A DNA stretch of 64,000 nt from Sulfurospirillaceae bacterium. Lineage in GTDB: Bacteria > Campylobacterota > Campylobacteria > Campylobacterales > Sulfurospirillaceae. The notes beneath the pieces are model-generated. The model did not search any database, was not told the DNA's origin, and saw only the letters and a program-made list of their open reading frames with translations. The stretch spans positions 62,001 through 126,000 of the forward strand of contig JAQUWL010000002.1 of the NCBI GenBank assembly GCA_028692875.1, given 5' to 3'. Position 1 is the stretch's first letter; each line of letters begins with the position of its first letter. Made by a program: the position numbers and the translations under genes. Below, one piece after another: positions 4,011 through 63,920 of this stretch.

Positions 4011-6821
4011 TTAGCTCATCCCCAATGCTTTTGATAAAAATTTTCCGGTATAACTTCCGCTTCGCAGATGGTTTAATGCTACGGCGATCGGAGAGCCGAT
4101 ATCTACTATTCGCCCTCCTCCGCTACCGCCTTCTGGTCCCATATCGATGATGTAGTCGGCATTTTTGATAACATCCATATTGTGCTCTATAACCAAAACA
4201 CTATTGCCAAGCTCCGTCAAATGGTGCAAAACCTTCACTAAACGGTCAGTATCGGCAAAATGAAGTCCAGTCGTTGGCTCATCCAAAATATAAAGCGTCT
4301 GTCCTGTATCTTTTTTGCTCAACTCTTTAGAGAGCTTTATGCGTTGTGCTTCGCCTCCGCTAAGTGTTGTGGCATTTTGTCCTAGGGTAATATATCCTAG
4401 TCCTACATCAATCAGAGTTGAAAGTATTTGGTTGAGCTTTGGAATGCTTTCAAAAAATGAAAATGCCTCTTCAACGCTCATTCCTAGCACATCTGAGATG
4501 GATTTGCCTTTGTGTTTTATCTCTAGCGTTTGTGCGTTGTAGCGATGACCTCGACACGAATCGCACTTAACCATAATGTCTGGCAAAAAGTGCATCTCTA
4601 TCTTTATCTCGCCATCGCCTTGACACTTTTCACATCGTCCGCCTTTGACATTAAATGAAAATCTTCCGACCTTATAGCCTCTTACTTGTGCCTCTTTGGT
4701 TTTAGCAAAAAGCTCTCGTATCTCATCCATCAAACCAGTATAAGTTGCTGGATTGCTTCTAGGAGTTCGCCCTATCGGGCTTTGGTCAAGATAGATGACC
4801 TTATCCAACTGCTCAAGCCCTATACACTCGACACCAGCGACTTTTTGCACCTTTTTGGCACGATTGAGCAACTCTTTGGCAGTAGGCAAAAGCGTTTGAA
4901 GTATAAGCGAGCTTTTACCACTTCCGCTAACACCCGTAATACATACAAGATTTGATAGTGGTATCTTTACATGTAGGTTTTTAATGTTGTTTAGAGTGAC
5001 ATTGTTTAGCTCTAGCCAATGTTTCTGCTCTCTGTTGCTTTTATACTCTATCTTTTTTTCGCCACTCAAATACATCGCCGTCAATGTTTTTGATTTTCTA
5101 AGCTCATCAATGGTTCCAGAAAAGACGATTTGTCCGCCATATTTTCCAGCCCCTGGTCCAATGTCCACAACAAAATCAGCTGATTCTATTGTCTCTTTAT
5201 CATGCTCTACAACTATAACCGAGTTGCCTTTTTTTTGAAGATTTTTTAGTGTTCTTATGAGCTTCAAGGTATCTCTTTCATGCAGTCCAATGCTCGGCTC
5301 ATCTAGCACATACATAACGCCCGTCAATCCACTTCCTATCTGCGAAGCGATTCGGATACGTTGCGCCTCTCCTCCACTGATGGTTCTCGCATCTCTTCCA
5401 AGTCCGATATATCCCAGACCTACATCGTAAAGGAAAAATAGTCGCTCCCTAATCTCCTTAAGAATAGACGAGGAGATAAGTTTGTGTTGAGCCTTCATGT
5501 ATGAAAAATTGCTCTCGTCTTTAAAAAATTCAAGTGATTTTTCAATAGGCATATCCAAAATATCGCCTATGCTTTTGTCTGCAACCCTAACAGAAAGACT
5601 CTCTTTTTTAAGACGATAACCTTTACATGTATCGCATGTTTTTTCACTCATATACTCACTTAACTCTTTATCGTCCTTGAGCATATCATAGGCAATCTTT
5701 AGCACACCATCCCATTTTCTAGTCAACTTATGATGTTTCCAGTGAAACACTGCCATCTCGACTCCGCCGTGCAAAATCGCCTTTTGCTCATGTGGCTCAA
5801 GCTCTTCAAAAGGAGTCTTTGTGTCAATATTTGCCCCTTGACAATAGGCTTGTAAAAATTTTGAGTAGTAGCTTTTGTTAAAGCCATAAAAAATCTTAAT
5901 AGCACCTTTTTCGATACTCAAATGCTCATCAATCACCTTGCTTATATCGATAGCATAGCGTATGCCCAAACCATCACATGTGGGACAAGCACCTTTTGGA
6001 GAGTTGAACGAAAACGACAACGGCTCCAGTGGCTCAAAGCTTATTTTGCAGTCAAAACACGCCAAGTGTTCGCTGTAATGAATATGCGCCTTATCGCATC
6101 CAACCTCTTCATGATTTAAAATCTCTATCTCAACCTCGCCGTAACTCTCCGATAGTGCTTTTTCAACACCTTGAGCGATACGCTCCTTGTTTTCCTCGCT
6201 TATAACAACTCTATCAACTATAACTTTAAGTGTATGTTTTTTGGTTTTACTAAGCTCTATCTCTTCATCAAGACGTGCTTGCACACCGTCTATCATCGCT
6301 CTAACATAACCTTTTTGGCGAAGAGTTTCAATAAGGTCAGAAAAACTTCCTTTCTTCTCTCGAATCAATGGTGCCAAAATGATAATTTTTGCATTTTCTG
6401 GCAGTTTTAAAACCTGCTCTATAATATCGCTCACACCCATTTGAGATATAGGTTTACCGCATTGGTGGCAAGACTGAACACCTACTCTGGCATAAAGAAG
6501 TCGCAAATAGTCGTAAATCTCAGTAATCGTTCCAACAGTAGAGCGAGGATTTTTGCTTGTAGTTTTTTGATCAATCGCGATAGCTGGAGTTAGTCCTTCT
6601 ATCTTCTCCACATCAGGCTTTCCGATTCTGTCCAAAAATTGCCTTGCATAAGAGGAAAGTGACTCGATATAACGCCTCTGTCCCTCGGCGTACAAAGTAT
6701 CAAAAGCCAATGTACTTTTACCGCTTCCGCTAAGTCCAGTAAAGACAACGAGTCTGTTTTTGGGGATTTCTAAATTGATATTTTTTAGATTATTCTCTTT
6801 GGCACCATATATTTTTATCAT
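4011..6821 (-). CDS. uvrA: Excinuclease ABC subunit A
   Basis: UvrA, the damage-sensing ATPase of nucleotide excision repair; it dimerises, loads UvrB and then leaves. At 936 residues it is full length. Visible: first Walker A GLSGSGKS (29-36), a second at about 630 (GVSGSGKS), two ABC signatures (TISGGEAQRIRIA and TLSGGEAQRIKLS), and two zinc modules, CFDCK with CPTC and CEKCQGDG with CDSCRGHR. It starts seven bases after the TauE-family gene stops being read on the other side of the junction (6828), and overlaps nothing. Two TACATGTA copies lie inside the gene. Confidence 0.97.
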   Translation of the reverse strand: MIKIYGAKENNLKNINLEIPKNRLVVFTGLSGSGKSTLAFDTLYAEGQRRYIESLSSYARQFLDRIGKPDVEKIEGLTPAIAIDQKTTSKNPRSTVGTITEIYDYLRLLYARVGVQSCHQCGKPISQMGVSDIIEQVLKLPENAKIIILAPLIREKKGSFSDLIETLRQKGYVRAMIDGVQARLDEEIELSKTKKHTLKVIVDRVVISEENKERIAQGVEKALSESYGEVEIEILNHEEVGCDKAHIHYSEHLACFDCKISFEPLEPLSFSFNSPKGACPTCDGLGIRYAIDISKVIDEHLSIEKGAIKIFYGFNKSYYSKFLQAYCQGANIDTKTPFEELEPHEQKAILHGGVEMAVFHWKHHKLTRKWDGVLKIAYDMLKDDKELSEYMSEKTCDTCKGYRLKKESLSVRVADKSIGDILDMPIEKSLEFFKDESNFSYMKAQHKLISSSILKEIRERLFFLYDVGLGYIGLGRDARTISGGEAQRIRIASQIGSGLTGVMYVLDEPSIGLHERDTLKLIRTLKNLQKKGNSVIVVEHDKETIESADFVVDIGPGAGKYGGQIVFSGTIDELRKSKTLTAMYLSGEKKIEYKSNREQKHWLELNNVTLNNIKNLHVKIPLSNLVCITGVSGSGKSSLILQTLLPTAKELLNRAKKVQKVAGVECIGLEQLDKVIYLDQSPIGRTPRSNPATYTGLMDEIRELFAKTKEAQVRGYKVGRFSFNVKGGRCEKCQGDGEIKIEMHFLPDIMVKCDSCRGHRYNAQTLEIKHKGKSISDVLGMSVEEAFSFFESIPKLNQILSTLIDVGLGYITLGQNATTLSGGEAQRIKLSKELSKKDTGQTLYILDEPTTGLHFADTDRLVKVLHHLTELGNSVLVIEHNMDVIKNADYIIDMGPEGGSGGGRIVDIGSPIAVALNHLRSGSYTGKFLSKALGMS

Positions 6822-58981: not shown

Positions 58982-60291
58982 TAAATGATACCCCTTAGTT
59001 GATAGCTCAAATCTCCTGCGCCAAAGCCGATAACCAAACCATCATCTAGTTTTGCGCACGATTTGGCATCTTTGATTGCCTCAATAGAAGATTCACTCCT
59101 TTTGACGCAATCCACCAACATCAAATTATACCGTGCAAACTCTTTTTTAAAGTCTATTTCTATCTCTTTTTCTCCAACTTTCCAAACCGGCAAAATAATC
59201 AATCTATCAACTCCCTCGAAACAGCTCACAAAAGCCTCCAGATTGTCGATGGTTCTTGAGTATTTGTGCGGTTGCCAAATAGCAGTAATCTTTGAAAATC
59301 CCATCAACTGCGAGTATTTTTTGACCGATTCGATAGTTGCTCTAATCTCTGTTGGATGGTGCCCATAGTCATCTATGAGAGCAAAATTTTTCTCTACATG
59401 TAGGATATCAAACCGCTTCTTAATGCCTTTAAAATTTTTTAGCTTTTCTCTTATAAGCTCAACATCCATCTCATTTAGTGCTGCCAAAATCGCCAAAGAA
59501 GCGTCTATCGCCATATGTTCTCCGATGCCCCAAACCTCAAAACGCCCCAAATCCTTCAACACAAAAGAGGTAAAAGGCTCATTGTCTCGCATAACTGTTT
59601 GGATATCTTTTATATCACGGCTTGGATAAAGACGGATTGCCTCAAGACTCTCCAGCGTGCCTAAAAACTCATCTTCTGCATTTATAACTCGAAGTGTTGC
59701 ACTTTGCAAAAAATGCTTATAAGCCCCATAAAAACGCTCATAGTCGTAGTTATAATACTCCATATGTTCTGGCTCAGCATTGGTCACGATGGCGATATAT
59801 GGATTTGAATTTAAAAAACTCTCGTCACTCTCATCGGCTTCAAAAATAACATTGTCGCCATCTCGAAAATACATATTTGTTCCAAACTGTTTGCTCTCTG
59901 CTCCGATGATGACCGTACCGTCTATCAATGACGCCAACATCGCACTTGTGGTACTTTTGCCATGTGCTCCGCAAACCGAAAAAACACGCTTGTCTTTTAG
60001 TATAAATAGCAAAGCCTCTTTTCTAGAAAATGTTGCTATGCCCTTTTTCTTAGCCTCAAGCAATTCGACATTTTCGCCTTTAATCGCAGCAGAATAAACC
60101 ACCAAATCTTGATCTTTGATACACTGCGAACTATGTGGAATCTGTATCTCAATACCCTCTTGCTCAAGCGCAGAAGTAATCTTTGTAGCTCTTATGTCTG
60201 AGCCAGTAACCGTGTATCCTTTTTCTTTTAAAAAACGTGCCAATGCCGAAAGACCAATACCACCAATACCTACAAAATGAACTTTTTTCAA
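58981..60291 (-). CDS. murC: UDP-N-acetylmuramate-L-alanine ligase
   Basis: 436 residues. Adds L-alanine to UDP-MurNAc, the first amino acid of the peptidoglycan stem. HFVGIGGIGLSALARFL, GSDIRATKIT, VCGAHGKSTTSAMLASLI (P-loop), EADESDESFLNSNPYIAIVTNAEPEHMEYY and DYGHHPTEIRATI are typical. TTG 60291 overlaps the dapC stop, with AAAGGA before it. Shorter than E. coli MurC, as usual in this phylum. Confidence 0.96.
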   Translation of the reverse strand: MKKVHFVGIGGIGLSALARFLKEKGYTVTGSDIRATKITSALEQEGIEIQIPHSSQCIKDQDLVVYSAAIKGENVELLEAKKKGIATFSRKEALLFILKDKRVFSVCGAHGKSTTSAMLASLIDGTVIIGAESKQFGTNMYFRDGDNVIFEADESDESFLNSNPYIAIVTNAEPEHMEYYNYDYERFYGAYKHFLQSATLRVINAEDEFLGTLESLEAIRLYPSRDIKDIQTVMRDNEPFTSFVLKDLGRFEVWGIGEHMAIDASLAILAALNEMDVELIREKLKNFKGIKKRFDILHVEKNFALIDDYGHHPTEIRATIESVKKYSQLMGFSKITAIWQPHKYSRTIDNLEAFVSCFEGVDRLIILPVWKVGEKEIEIDFKKEFARYNLMLVDCVKRSESSIEAIKDAKSCAKLDDGLVIGFGAGDLSYQLRGII

Positions 60292-61418
60292 TGGTTTCCT
60301 TTTATAAAATCACTCAAATTTTTCAAAACGCCTGTCATCGTAGAGTTTTTCTCAACCAAGGCTATTCGCACATAAGCATCTGCTATTCCGCCCCTACCAA
60401 GGAAACTTCCTGGTAAAACTTTGATATTTTTTTCCCTATACAAAGCCTTTGTAAAAGCCAAATCATTCTCTACATGTAGCCATACATAAAACGTCGCCTC
60501 GGGCATCGCAACGCCCAATATCTCTTGTGCTGATTTTGCATTAAGAGCGTACTCTTTACGAATAATCTCTACATGTACATCATCACTCCACGCCGCAGCG
60601 GAGGCGTATTGTAAAGGAAGCGGAATGGCAACCCCGACATAGGTTCGATACTGCAAATAGGACTTTAGTATCGCCTCATCTCCTGCGATAAAACCTGAAC
60701 GAAGAGCTGGAGCAGAACTTCGTTTTGATATCGAGTTAATAACAAGCACATTTTTAAATGTATCATTTCCTACATGTAGGCTCGCTTCAAGGAGTGAAGG
60801 CGGTTTTTTGTCGACATATATCTCGCTGTAACACTCATCATTGAGCAAGACAATATCGTGCTTTAACGCAAACTTAACCCACTCGCCAAGCTCTTCAAGA
60901 CTCAATGTTGCCGTAGTCGGGTTATTTGGAAAATTTAAAATAATCAAATCCGCCCCCAGCAACTCTGGCAAACTCATATCTGGTTTAAAATCGTTCTTAC
61001 ATGTAAGGTTGATATGCAAAACTTTGGCTCTACTTGCGATAGCCGCACCCTCATAAATCTGATAAAAAGGGTTTGTGTATGCCATAACTGGATTTGGTTT
61101 GTCGTGAAGCAAAAACTGCGGGAAGTTAAAAAGCACCTCACGTGTTCCAAATGTCGGAATCAGCTCGCTCTCTTTTAGATTCACACCAAAACGACGCTTT
61201 ACAAATCCCAACTGTGCCTCTTTAAGAAAAGGCTCTCCTGCGGTTTTTGGGTATTTGTTGAGCCATTTTGTGTTTTGTCTTAACGCCTCTTGAATAAAAT
61301 CTGGCGTCTCAAACTGTGGCTCTCCGATGGTTAGAGATATGGGCTTGTAGCTAGGATTTGGTACGATATCTTTGAGTAAATCTGTTAGTTTTTCAAATGG
61401 ATAGGGTTCAAAATGCAA
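60288..61418 (-). CDS. dapC: Succinyldiaminopimelate transaminase-like PLP aminotransferase
   Basis: 376 residues, fold-type I aminotransferase. FEPYPFEKLTDLLKDI start, GEPQFETPDFIQEAL, FGTREVLFNFPQ, NFPNNPTTATLSLEEL, NDECYSEIY, and the PLP lysine in VINSISKRSSAPALRSGF. The pathway partner dapE is at 53.7 kb. TTG 61418 with AGG seven bases upstream gives the family N-terminus; the longer reading adds a basic stretch. Four TACATGTA copies lie within 540 bases of this gene, the densest cluster in the window. Confidence 0.9.
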   Translation of the reverse strand: MHFEPYPFEKLTDLLKDIVPNPSYKPISLTIGEPQFETPDFIQEALRQNTKWLNKYPKTAGEPFLKEAQLGFVKRRFGVNLKESELIPTFGTREVLFNFPQFLLHDKPNPVMAYTNPFYQIYEGAAIASRAKVLHINLTCKNDFKPDMSLPELLGADLIILNFPNNPTTATLSLEELGEWVKFALKHDIVLLNDECYSEIYVDKKPPSLLEASLHVGNDTFKNVLVINSISKRSSAPALRSGFIAGDEAILKSYLQYRTYVGVAIPLPLQYASAAAWSDDVHVEIIRKEYALNAKSAQEILGVAMPEATFYVWLHVENDLAFTKALYREKNIKVLPGSFLGRGGIADAYVRIALVEKNSTMTGVLKNLSDFIKGNH

Positions 61419-61687
61419 TGGTTTTCCTTTTTTATATTTTGGATTTTTGGACAATTTTCATAAAATACTTGCAATTCCTCTTTGTCAACATAACTGAGCT
61501 TAAAAATATCATCATCAACTCTTTTAAATTCAAAAATACAATCTCCTAAAGCTCCATCATTATATGCTTCAACACTTATCATATTTTCATCTTTTAAACA
61601 ATCTACGGTTATCAAGTCATACTTATTGCAAATGTATATAATTTCCTCTAACGAATACTGTTTGTTTTTTGTAAAAATTTTTATCAT
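61385..61687 (-). CDS. Unknown 100-residue protein, coupled to the nuclease ORF
   Basis: 100 residues, acidic in its middle (DDDIFKLSYVDKEELQVFYE), AT-rich, with no recognisable family. A short alpha/beta fold is likely (SLEEIIYICNKYDLITVDCL, DGALGDCIFEFKRV). ATG 61687 overlaps the stop of the nuclease-like ORF (ATGA), so translation is coupled, and its 3' end overlaps the dapC start by 34 bases. It could be an immunity or accessory partner, but nothing in the sequence proves it. Confidence 0.6.
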   Translation of the reverse strand: MIKIFTKNKQYSLEEIIYICNKYDLITVDCLKDENMISVEAYNDGALGDCIFEFKRVDDDIFKLSYVDKEELQVFYENCPKIQNIKKENHCILNPIHLKN

Positions 61688-62109
61688 AAAATAGAAGCAT
61701 TCCAATTAATCTGCATAACAGTATTTTCAACTCGTTTGAAATTCATATTTACCAATGGATCTTGGTAAATATTGTGAGATGGATTTTCTTTGAGATTTTT
61801 TACAACAAAAATAAAATATCTATCTTTTAAAAAATTTGCAGCCATGTGCTCTTTATTTGTTAAAATGATATTGCCTCTTATTTCACTAAGCCCTTTTACC
61901 TCAACACCAAAATAACATTTTTTTTCTTCTGAAGCCAACTTAAAATCAAAACCACATCCCATTTTGGTTGTATCTTGAATATCATACCCCTTAAACACAT
62001 CAATAGCTGAAAAATTGTCTCTAAAATATTGTTCTGCTGCTTGTCCCGTAATAAGTCGCTTAGCAAATGAACTTTCTTCCTCTTCTTCACTTTTGGCAAT
62101 CTCTTCCAT
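61684..62109 (-). CDS. PD-(D/E)XK/DUF3883-like nuclease ORF (probable 3' half of a split gene)
   Basis: 141 residues. GQAAEQYFRDNF, then CGFDFKLASEEKKCYFGVEVKG, which supplies the G-x-D...E-V-K pattern of PD-(D/E)XK nucleases, and ILTNKEHMAANFLKDRYFIFVV, resembling the DUF3883 family found in restriction enzymes and Sacsin-like proteins. It starts nine bases after the preceding ORF and is in the -1 frame relative to it. Extending through the A7 tract would join the two. Function would be DNA cleavage or modification sensing; this is inferred. Confidence 0.65.
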   Translation of the reverse strand: MEEIAKSEEEEESSFAKRLITGQAAEQYFRDNFSAIDVFKGYDIQDTTKMGCGFDFKLASEEKKCYFGVEVKGLSEIRGNIILTNKEHMAANFLKDRYFIFVVKNLKENPSHNIYQDPLVNMNFKRVENTVMQINWNASIL

Positions 62110-62117
62110 TAAGATAC

Positions 62118-62450
62118 CTAAATCATGGTCTTCATAAATATTTTTTTAAGTAACAATGAAAAATCTATTAAATTCAATGTATGAAAAACGTCATAAATAT
62201 TTTTACAATATTGTCTAATTTCTCTTTTATGCCGACCTTTTCGTAAATTTGGGAAAAAAGGGTCAAATTCATCTCTATAATTTTTTATTGATGCTGGTTT
62301 AATTGCCAATGCTAAACCGATAATATTAAAGGCTTCCGTAAAATTCTCAAACCCCAAAAATTTCAAACCTTCAACATCAAACTTTGATAAGTATAAACCA
62401 GCTAATATTGCTTTCTCTCTAGCTGTAAGTTTTTTAATATTTTTACTCAA
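62118..62450 (-). CDS. Helical DNA-binding-like ORF (probable 5' half of the split nuclease gene)
   Basis: 110 residues, TTG start with GAAGGG six bases upstream. Helical region LTAREKAILAGLYLSKFDVEG, then SIKNYRDEFDPFFPNLRKG, a motif I recall at the N-terminus of restriction-like and DUF3883 proteins. The last seven residues (IFMKTMI) come after an A7 run; adding one A would read on as NIYEDHDLGILMEEIAKSEE into the next ORF. The complete product would be about 255 residues. It begins inside the reading end of the MoeB-like gene region without overlap. Confidence 0.6.
   Translation of the reverse strand: MSKNIKKLTAREKAILAGLYLSKFDVEGLKFLGFENFTEAFNIIGLALAIKPASIKNYRDEFDPFFPNLRKGRHKREIRQYCKNIYDVFHTLNLIDFSLLLKKIFMKTMI
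62141..62147 (-). other. A7 slip site splitting the nuclease gene
   Basis: In the coding direction CTT AAA AAA ATA TTT ATG leads to TAG. A -1 slip on AAA AAA, or one extra A, gives CTT AAA AAA AAT ATT TAT GAA, open through the start of the next ORF. The upstream end of that frame is closed by a TAA at the edge of the run. Confidence 0.65.
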
Positions 62451-62460
62451 CTCAAACCCT

Positions 62461-63129
62461 TCATGGCTTTGGCATTCCAAACTTCTGGGTTATCAACTCG
62501 CCTTCGTCATTAAAATATAGATAATAAAGCCAATCTTTTTTGACACTGAGTCCCGCAAGATAACGCAGTGCTAGATTTGCTTGAAGTGAAGCGATGTGCA
62601 TAACTATTGGAGCTGCGATGCCTGCTGGTTTTTTATCCGTCACTTTAAACGCACTGAAACTACTTTTGTCAAAAAAACAAACTTGCCCATTGAACGCCTC
62701 AACCGAGCCATAAACCCAAGGCGTATTTTTTGCCTTTGCATACTCATCTATCAACGCTCTTGTTGGAAGATTGTCCGTAGCATCAAGTATCAAATCAACC
62801 TCGATATCCTTACATGTAAAGGCTTCAAGTCGTCCGATATGGGAACTTACCTTCACAAAAGGGCAACGATTTTCTATGACTTCTTTGACGATATCGGCTT
62901 TGTATTTTCCCTCATCGCCTACTTTAAAAGCGATTTGACGGTGGATATTGTGCACGCTCACTGTGTCAAAATCCACCACATGTATCTCGCCTATGCCGGA
63001 GCTTCCAAGTGCAAATGCAAGCGAACTGCCTAGTCCGCCACATCCGATGATAACAACTCTTTTGCTTTGCAGGTTTTGCTGCGTCTTTTCACCCCAAAGC
63101 TCTATTTGTCTATGAAAATACTCTTTCAC
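62461..63129 (-). CDS. ThiF/MoeB-family adenylyltransferase
   Basis: 222 residues of the E1-like superfamily that activates ThiS- or MoaD-type sulfur carriers. VVIIGCGGLGSSLAFALGSSG (nucleotide binding), DFDTVSVHNIHRQIAF with the Arg, and LDATDNLPTRALIDEYA are present. The C-terminal zinc CxxC pairs of MoeB are not visible, so MoeB or ThiF specificity is unclear. GTG 63129 overlaps the previous stop (GTGA) and gives MKEYFHRQIELWG, a usual start. One TACATGTA inside. Confidence 0.85.
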   Translation of the reverse strand: MKEYFHRQIELWGEKTQQNLQSKRVVIIGCGGLGSSLAFALGSSGIGEIHVVDFDTVSVHNIHRQIAFKVGDEGKYKADIVKEVIENRCPFVKVSSHIGRLEAFTCKDIEVDLILDATDNLPTRALIDEYAKAKNTPWVYGSVEAFNGQVCFFDKSSFSAFKVTDKKPAGIAAPIVMHIASLQANLALRYLAGLSVKKDWLYYLYFNDEGELITQKFGMPKP

Positions 63130-63920
63130 AAAAGCTCTCTTTTGAGAACTTGTTTTTTCCATCCCCACATTTTTCGTGCCTCTGCAAGGACATCTTTATC
63201 GACACTTGCAACCAAAATCTCCTCTTTATCGCCCAAACAAAGCTCAATATCGCCAAAAGGGGAAGTCAAACTGCTATGCCCATAAAATCTCCACGCCTCC
63301 GCACCCTCTTTGTATGAGCCGATACGATTGGCTCTTAAGATATATACATTATTTAAAAACGCTCTGCTTTTGATAAGCTCCTGCCATCTTTGCAAAGAAT
63401 CAAACGTCGAAGAGCTAGACATCAAAACGACATCTATATTTTTACGCATAACCTCTTGCCATACAGTATCAAAATGAAGCTCATAGCCATTGACGATAGC
63501 AAAACGAAATCCATCCAATACAAAAATAGGTAAGGAAAATTTTTCTAGCACATTGTCGAAAAATCGCTCCTCGTTCCAATGCTTGTAGTTTATTAAAAAT
63601 TGCTGGTCGTAAAAATGTACCGATCTTGGAGAAAAGCGTGCTGTGCTTTTATATAAATGCTCTCCTTTTATCGTAACTATAGGTGCTACAACATTTATGT
63701 CATACTCTATGCAGAGGCTTTTCAAAATCTCTATTTTATGATTAGATTGCTCTTTTATCATGCTTTTTGGCATCTGCTCTAGCTCTTTGAAAAAGCTATT
63801 GAGTGCATATTCGCTCAAAAGCAATAAATTCACACCCTGTTTTTTACAAATCTTAAAATAATAATCCAACTTCACATCACTCATAGGAAGTGTTGAGAGT
63901 TGTAACGCAGCTATCTTCAT
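63126..63920 (-). CDS. Nitrilase-fold protein lacking the catalytic cysteine
   Basis: 264 residues of the carbon-nitrogen hydrolase fold. The glutamate is kept (E37 in LLLLSEYALNSF) and a lysine is in NYKHWNEERFF, but the cysteine position reads FAIVNGYELHFDTVW with Gly145 where C-Y-D is usual. RANRIGSYKEGAEAWRFYGHSSLTSPFGD fits the fold. It may be a non-catalytic or binding member. It overlaps the MoeB-like gene and probable xseB. Confidence 0.78.
   Translation of the reverse strand: MKIAALQLSTLPMSDVKLDYYFKICKKQGVNLLLLSEYALNSFFKELEQMPKSMIKEQSNHKIEILKSLCIEYDINVVAPIVTIKGEHLYKSTARFSPRSVHFYDQQFLINYKHWNEERFFDNVLEKFSLPIFVLDGFRFAIVNGYELHFDTVWQEVMRKNIDVVLMSSSSTFDSLQRWQELIKSRAFLNNVYILRANRIGSYKEGAEAWRFYGHSSLTSPFGDIELCLGDKEEILVASVDKDVLAEARKMWGWKKQVLKRELL

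Follow-up and report, generated by a model that had tools for sequence, protein, structure and literature searches.

A frameshifted DUF3883 nuclease gene and its small partner at the moeB-dapC junction of a Sulfurospirillaceae bacterium, a probable broken copy of a restriction-like module

What occupies the interval between a ThiF/MoeB-like gene (moeB below) and dapC in a Sulfurospirillaceae bacterium with a draft genome assembly of 44 contigs (GCA_028692875.1)? We analysed a stretch of 64,000 nt of contig JAQUWL010000002.1 (positions 62,001-126,000, forward strand), which is called the window throughout. Its minus strand carries, in this order, a carbon-nitrogen hydrolase gene, moeB, ORF1, ORF2, ORF3, dapC and murC, the last labelled by eye and from its neighbours. 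The three ORFs lie within 61385-62480. Their GC content of about 0.28, compared with 0.39-0.43 in the flanking genes, agrees with the first-pass annotation, which had described an AT-rich accessory insertion of three genes forming a compact defence or toxin-immunity unit. We find that the insert is an AT-rich accessory cassette of two genes, not three (Table 1).

Table 1 Features of the moeB-dapC interval, in window coordinates
Feature	Position	Strand	Basis
ThiF/MoeB-like gene, intact, upstream flank	62461..63168	(-)	PF00899, E=6e-46
ORF1, N-terminal part of the predicted nuclease gene	62118..62450	(-)	Alignment to the N-terminal half of full-length homologues
A7 run, site of frame loss	62141..62147	(-)	DNA alignment, one base fewer than four homologues
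ORF2 with open upstream stretch, C-terminal part of the predicted nuclease gene	61684..62145	(-)	PF13020, E=4.9e-12; conservation check
ORF3, small acidic partner	61385..61687	(-)	phmmer, E 1.6e-25 to 1.4e-15, five downstream partners
dapC ribosome-binding site, AAGGA type, common to relatives	61425..61430	(-)	
dapC, intact, downstream flank, TTG start 61418	60288..61418	(-)	NF004494, E=6.7e-186; TTG conserved

The domain content of ORF2 points to a nuclease, as had been read earlier from the residues of one ORF. ORF2 matches the NOV_C/DUF3883 profile with 46.2 bits, against a curated cut-off of 22.1, and its D and E-x-K residues are intact. A passage in PMC3710099 calls DUF3883 a novel REase domain, and one in PMC10609329 treats it as presumably a type IIR group. 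ORF1 and ORF3 gave no match in Pfam or PADLOC.

Matches to ORF2 were found in 14 of the 298 genomes of the class, the genome under study included, and several matches are open frames of about 250 residues in which ORF1 and ORF2 form a single protein. When aligned with these homologues, ORF1 falls on the N-terminal half, and ORF2 together with the open stretch before its ATG falls on the C-terminal half. The DNA alignment places the window one base short at the A7 run relative to four homologous loci (L110, L089, L100 and L104), and the codons past the run continue the protein of the homologues in register. By these alignments, ORF1 and ORF2 are the halves of one predicted nuclease of about 250 residues, split by a one-base deletion, and the single open frame of the subfamily is lost in the window at the run. 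The ATG of ORF2 is therefore an internal methionine codon, and the gap between ORF1 and ORF2, given before as 9 bases and really 8, is meaningless. The separate DNA-binding protein of the earlier reading is not supported. The gene probably begins at a TTG at 62450, 10 nt past the moeB stop, with AGGG 6 nt before the TTG.

The one-base deletion splits the gene and so most likely switches the enzyme off. We regard the window copy as probably inactive, with the caveat that the frameshift may be an assembly error. If the lesion arose in sequencing or assembly, the gene would be intact in the living strain; its position in a homopolymer and the draft state of the assembly fit this explanation. However, the near-invariant W69, retained in 54 of 55 homologues, is altered in the window, one of three such changes among 64 near-invariant columns. 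Damaged copies are also common in the class, where five of the 17 matches besides the window (L036, L045, L046, L048 and L049) have open frames of at most 174 residues. An error is somewhat unlikely in the face of these two observations. Slippage at the same A-run could instead toggle the nuclease off and on, and the second frame is indeed open from the run onward, with the catalytic residues intact and few near-invariant columns changed. Such phase variation seems quite unlikely to us, as the A-run is missing from all four aligned homologues and W69 is altered as well. An intact, distant copy of the nuclease is present in a Helicobacteraceae-type group (genus g32; L037-L044), and in L037 it sits 15 nt behind a gene that we take to resemble lepA.

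A structure model of the full-length homologue in L110 (mean pLDDT 90) is helical in its N-terminal part and ends in a PD-(D/E)XK domain. Assignment to the PD-(D/E)XK class combines this predicted fold with the residues kept in the window. The model matched Hjc, tRNA splicing endonucleases, SPARDA and I-Ssp6803I at Z about 6.5-8.2. The match list is taken up by the C-terminal domain, and no fold is assigned to the N-terminal part, which may recognise DNA. The methyl-dependent enzymes NhoI and Eco15I appear in the list at Z 5.6-5.9, values too weak for use, and a sequence search against solved structures gave no credible match.

ORF3 encodes 100 residues with a pI of 4.95, and its start shares the ATGA at 61684-61687 with the stop of ORF2. 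The earlier description of a last, acidic protein coupled to the nuclease is borne out by this overlap and by homologous partners. A phmmer search of ORFs in the surroundings of 80 homologous loci identified five ORF3 relatives, each directly 3' of the nuclease gene, and judged by this conservation ORF3 is a true gene. The relatives stop at about 71-93 residues, and the homologous core covers approximately the first 71-75 residues of ORF3. As the frame in the window crosses the dapC ribosome-binding site and 34 nt of the dapC coding sequence, the last 15 or so residues are a by-product of the insertion point. The first-pass annotation had noticed this reach into the ribosome-binding site and concluded that the insertion had rebuilt the dapC leader. 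The first part stands; the second does not, since the ribosome-binding site and the TTG match those common to nearly all relatives (L032 has ATG), so that the dapC end of the leader has been kept.

A small ORF begins between -20 and +30 nt from the nuclease stop in 28 of the 80 best of 142 loci. The ORF3 family accompanies the nuclease both beside R-M remnants (L087, L089 and L104) and at remnant-free sites (L100, L110 and the window). In a tree, for which the translations of both halves of the window copy were joined, this copy clusters with those of L110, L089 and L100, all having the ORF3 family. These associations suggest that the nuclease and its ORF3-family partner most likely spread as a unit. 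A small gene coupled to the nuclease gene by an ATGA overlap, with homologous partners elsewhere, is in keeping with a nuclease-immunity or toxin-antitoxin pair, and ORF3 probably restrains or assists the nuclease. Its predicted structure (mean pLDDT 80) gave nothing convincing against solved folds, with a best Z of 5.2. Searching the class with ORF3 gave matches at E up to 0.1 in 27 of 298 genomes, all but its own copy at E 0.01 or weaker; the four that were inspected fall, by eye, in presumably Rrf2-like proteins, and we took them as chance matches. Eight loci (L069, L070, L073, L075, L079, L082, L088 and L097) carry another small partner instead of ORF3; it has about 60-80 residues, CxxC pairs and His, and in most cases its gene overlaps the nuclease gene by 4 nt.

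The junction was compared in 29 other dapC loci (L004-L032), 25 of which have moeB in view upstream on the same strand (the others are L007, L028, L029 and L032). The gap between moeB and dapC is at most 106 nt in 22 of these 25, one of them with a 1-nt overlap, so the insertion is accessory, as had been proposed; in L008, L022 and L026 it measures 752-997 nt. The nuclease was not found in the other 59 relatives searched, one weak match apart, and there is thus no universal conservation of the ORFs at this site. Other inserts are found here. L008 (2648-3601) holds a protein of 317 residues with a HARE-HTH domain, and the ORFs found in L022 and L026 are on the opposite strand. The contig of L007 (1-1400) starts inside an insertion; what directly precedes dapC is the last part of a C5 methyltransferase gene and a gene for an NgoFVII-like restriction enzyme of full length. 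Because an R-M pair or some other restriction-like gene occupies it in two relatives, we regard the moeB-dapC junction as a docking site. In an order-level relative (L184, 1232-2230), two other ORFs of 183 and 147 aa lie in the junction, a further sign of such a site. The defence or toxin-immunity unit proposed at the outset therefore survives in part: the nuclease agrees with it, as do the small acidic protein coupled to it and the restriction-type genes that two relatives carry at this junction, while the unit is not intact, its nuclease being frameshifted. The module may have a defence-like role.

The homologous loci in other genomes suggest what kind of module was broken here. The family was scanned with one genome per species, and all counts out of 80 rest on the best 80 of 142 confirmed loci. 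Their hosts include Bacteroidetes, Patescibacteria, Acidobacteria, Verrucomicrobia, Campylobacter and others, and the mean column identity is 59% over 55 aligned members (55 of the 80 loci). Remnants of C5 methyltransferase (M), restriction (R) or Vsr genes are present in 51 of these best 80 of 142 loci and absent from 29. We searched for M with a profile of 428 positions built from 14 full-length genes. Homology on the plus strand was found in 41 of the best 80 of 142 loci; it is the N-terminal part, lies upstream of the nuclease gene and ends at profile positions 67-350. In 31 of the 41 its end lies within 60 nt upstream of the start of the nuclease ORF, or slightly past that start. Beyond 1.5 kb, a total of 441 kb in these loci gave no M match. 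Two of the 41 are the weakest: L105, with E=3e-3, and L064, where the homology stops 627 nt upstream. As controls, both M ends were reached by the profile in most loci left out of its building, and the background of 29 dapC loci gave M homology in one (L007).

Restriction-gene fragments that lack their 5' end often follow the nuclease gene. In intact HinP1I-type operons, M (331 or 326 aa) and R (253 or 251 aa) are adjacent with nothing between them. HinP1I-type R remnants occur in 11 nuclease loci and begin at residue 38 or later; seven of these loci also have HinP1I-type M, ending by residue 223, with the exception of a second piece in L068 (253-296). For a second R family (PADLOC PDLC03543, 331 positions), the match begins at position 105 or beyond in all six members that we looked at. 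The same arrangement recurs in L035, a distant copy from the order to which the window belongs, with an M fragment, the nuclease and an NgoFVII-like R from residue 108 of 378. One downstream protein, whose locus was not traced, strongly matches a type II REase profile (PDLC03526, E=3.5e-143), so the downstream R is not necessarily truncated everywhere. The restriction fragment family R70 had no plasmid match, and no intact R70 operon was therefore found. To judge from these truncations, the module appears to have taken the place of M-R junctions on repeated occasions. We found no account of this displacement in the open-licence literature.

Could the nuclease be a homing-like selfish element? 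It would then cut R-M loci, and its gene would be copied into the cut with losses of varying extent to either side, so that R-M operons would be its preferred landing place. The left end at the nuclease start codon and the variable loss of M and R suit this explanation, as does L106, where M fragments flank the nuclease gene (4992-5741) on both sides; in L096 the second fragment is weak. By their fragments, L106 and L096 are cases of the nuclease gene lying inside a C5 methyltransferase gene, a minimal insertion without a partner. The homing enzyme I-Ssp6803I is among the fold matches, but a Z of 6.5, as it has, is also reached by unrelated PD-(D/E)XK folds. The spread of the M ends, moreover, shows no common insertion point, and no copy of the nuclease was found in 50,697 phage records or in a viral contig scan. 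We therefore consider a homing element unlikely. Two plasmid homologues were found, both distant.

A modification-dependent, type IV-like nuclease would attack methylated DNA and settle only where the C5 methyltransferase has been destroyed. M is truncated in every one of the 41 loci in which it was seen (among the best 80 of 142), and the genome under study pairs an intact C5 methyltransferase with a broken nuclease, which this explanation would expect to be off. That methyltransferase is the one intact copy of the genome and lies on another contig (L143, 726-2523); a PD-(D/E)XK endonuclease-like gene (PF11645) overlaps its end, and by their arrangement the two are probably a complete R-M pair. 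No Vsr was found in this genome. However, 36 of 42 nuclease-bearing genomes (42 of the 80 loci examined) have a PF00145 match, many of full length, so the data do not support a general conflict of the nuclease with cytosine C5 methylation. It might still clash with a single methylated sequence. We hold the type IV-like explanation to be very unlikely.

Among known systems, the nuclease of the window resembles the DUF3883/NOV_C restriction-type nucleases in its domain, its PD-(D/E)XK residues and its link to R-M genes. It differs from them in that it is short, stands alone, has an N-terminal domain of its own and a coupled small partner, lacks a methyltransferase and is frameshifted in this genome. 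DUF3883 is known as a restriction-type domain; the variant setting of the window feature is new. Orthodox type II R-M systems, of the HinP1I type and others, provide the same operons in many loci, with M and R fragments and Vsr flanking the nuclease. Intact M and R are neighbours of each other, whereas the neighbours of the nuclease are fragments of both. In the window, where C5 methyltransferases were searched for, no cognate methyltransferase is adjacent, and the neighbours are moeB and dapC. The C-terminal end of Tiamat TmtA (PADLOC) is a related NOV_C domain, but the TmtA profiles are 1063-1782 residues long and match only over their C-terminal 100 or so positions, and the window lacks the rest of the architecture. 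A DUF3883 protein of 262-267 residues that shares the two-domain plan and 30-32% identity with the L110 protein is encoded in plasmid R-M clusters, alongside Z1, AIPR and ATPase genes (Hymenobacter and Terribacillus; L050 and L051). These clusters, in contrast, are large and multi-gene, and the Hymenobacter C5 methyltransferase is full length. Free-standing homing endonucleases likewise place a nuclease gene within or beside other genes without a transposase, whereas in the present family the spread M ends show no fixed target site, and no phage copies were found.

We consider it fairly probable that the window carries, at the moeB-dapC junction, a broken copy of a restriction-like nuclease and partner module from a family that displaces R-M systems. 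The first gene would encode a DNA endonuclease of about 250 residues, with a helical N-terminal domain and a DUF3883/NOV_C PD-(D/E)XK cleavage domain, and the second (ORF3) a small acidic partner, stop-start coupled, that probably restrains or assists it. The module lacks a methyltransferase, starts at the start codon of the nuclease, here 10 nt behind moeB, and is probably expressed by translational coupling to the preceding gene. Elsewhere, as the fragments show, relatives have repeatedly supplanted a C5 methyltransferase gene at its 3' end and the adjacent restriction gene at its 5' end. The copy at the moeB-dapC junction is most likely a recently broken restriction-like defence module. The 29 loci without an R-M remnant speak against this reading.

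More tentatively, the DUF3883 nuclease and its partner may be a mobile module that displaces type II R-M operons across phyla. It would enter the M-R junction, remove the M end and the R start in one step and take over the expression signals of the operon, possibly driven by its own cleavage; the window would then hold a broken copy outside an R-M operon. We find this proposal possible but doubtful. Orthodox R-M systems are hard to lose, as cells that cease to methylate are killed by their restriction enzyme. With R lethal in the absence of M, the joint loss of the M end and the R start would fit the demand of survival.

For the window, a presumed three-gene defence unit becomes a broken family member at a docking site. 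If the module does arrive at the M-R junction again and again, in operons and phyla of different kinds, it would be a natural way out of R-M addiction, or a parasite of it, and the loss of the M end and the R start in one step would, if true, offer cells a safe route to drop an addictive R-M pair.
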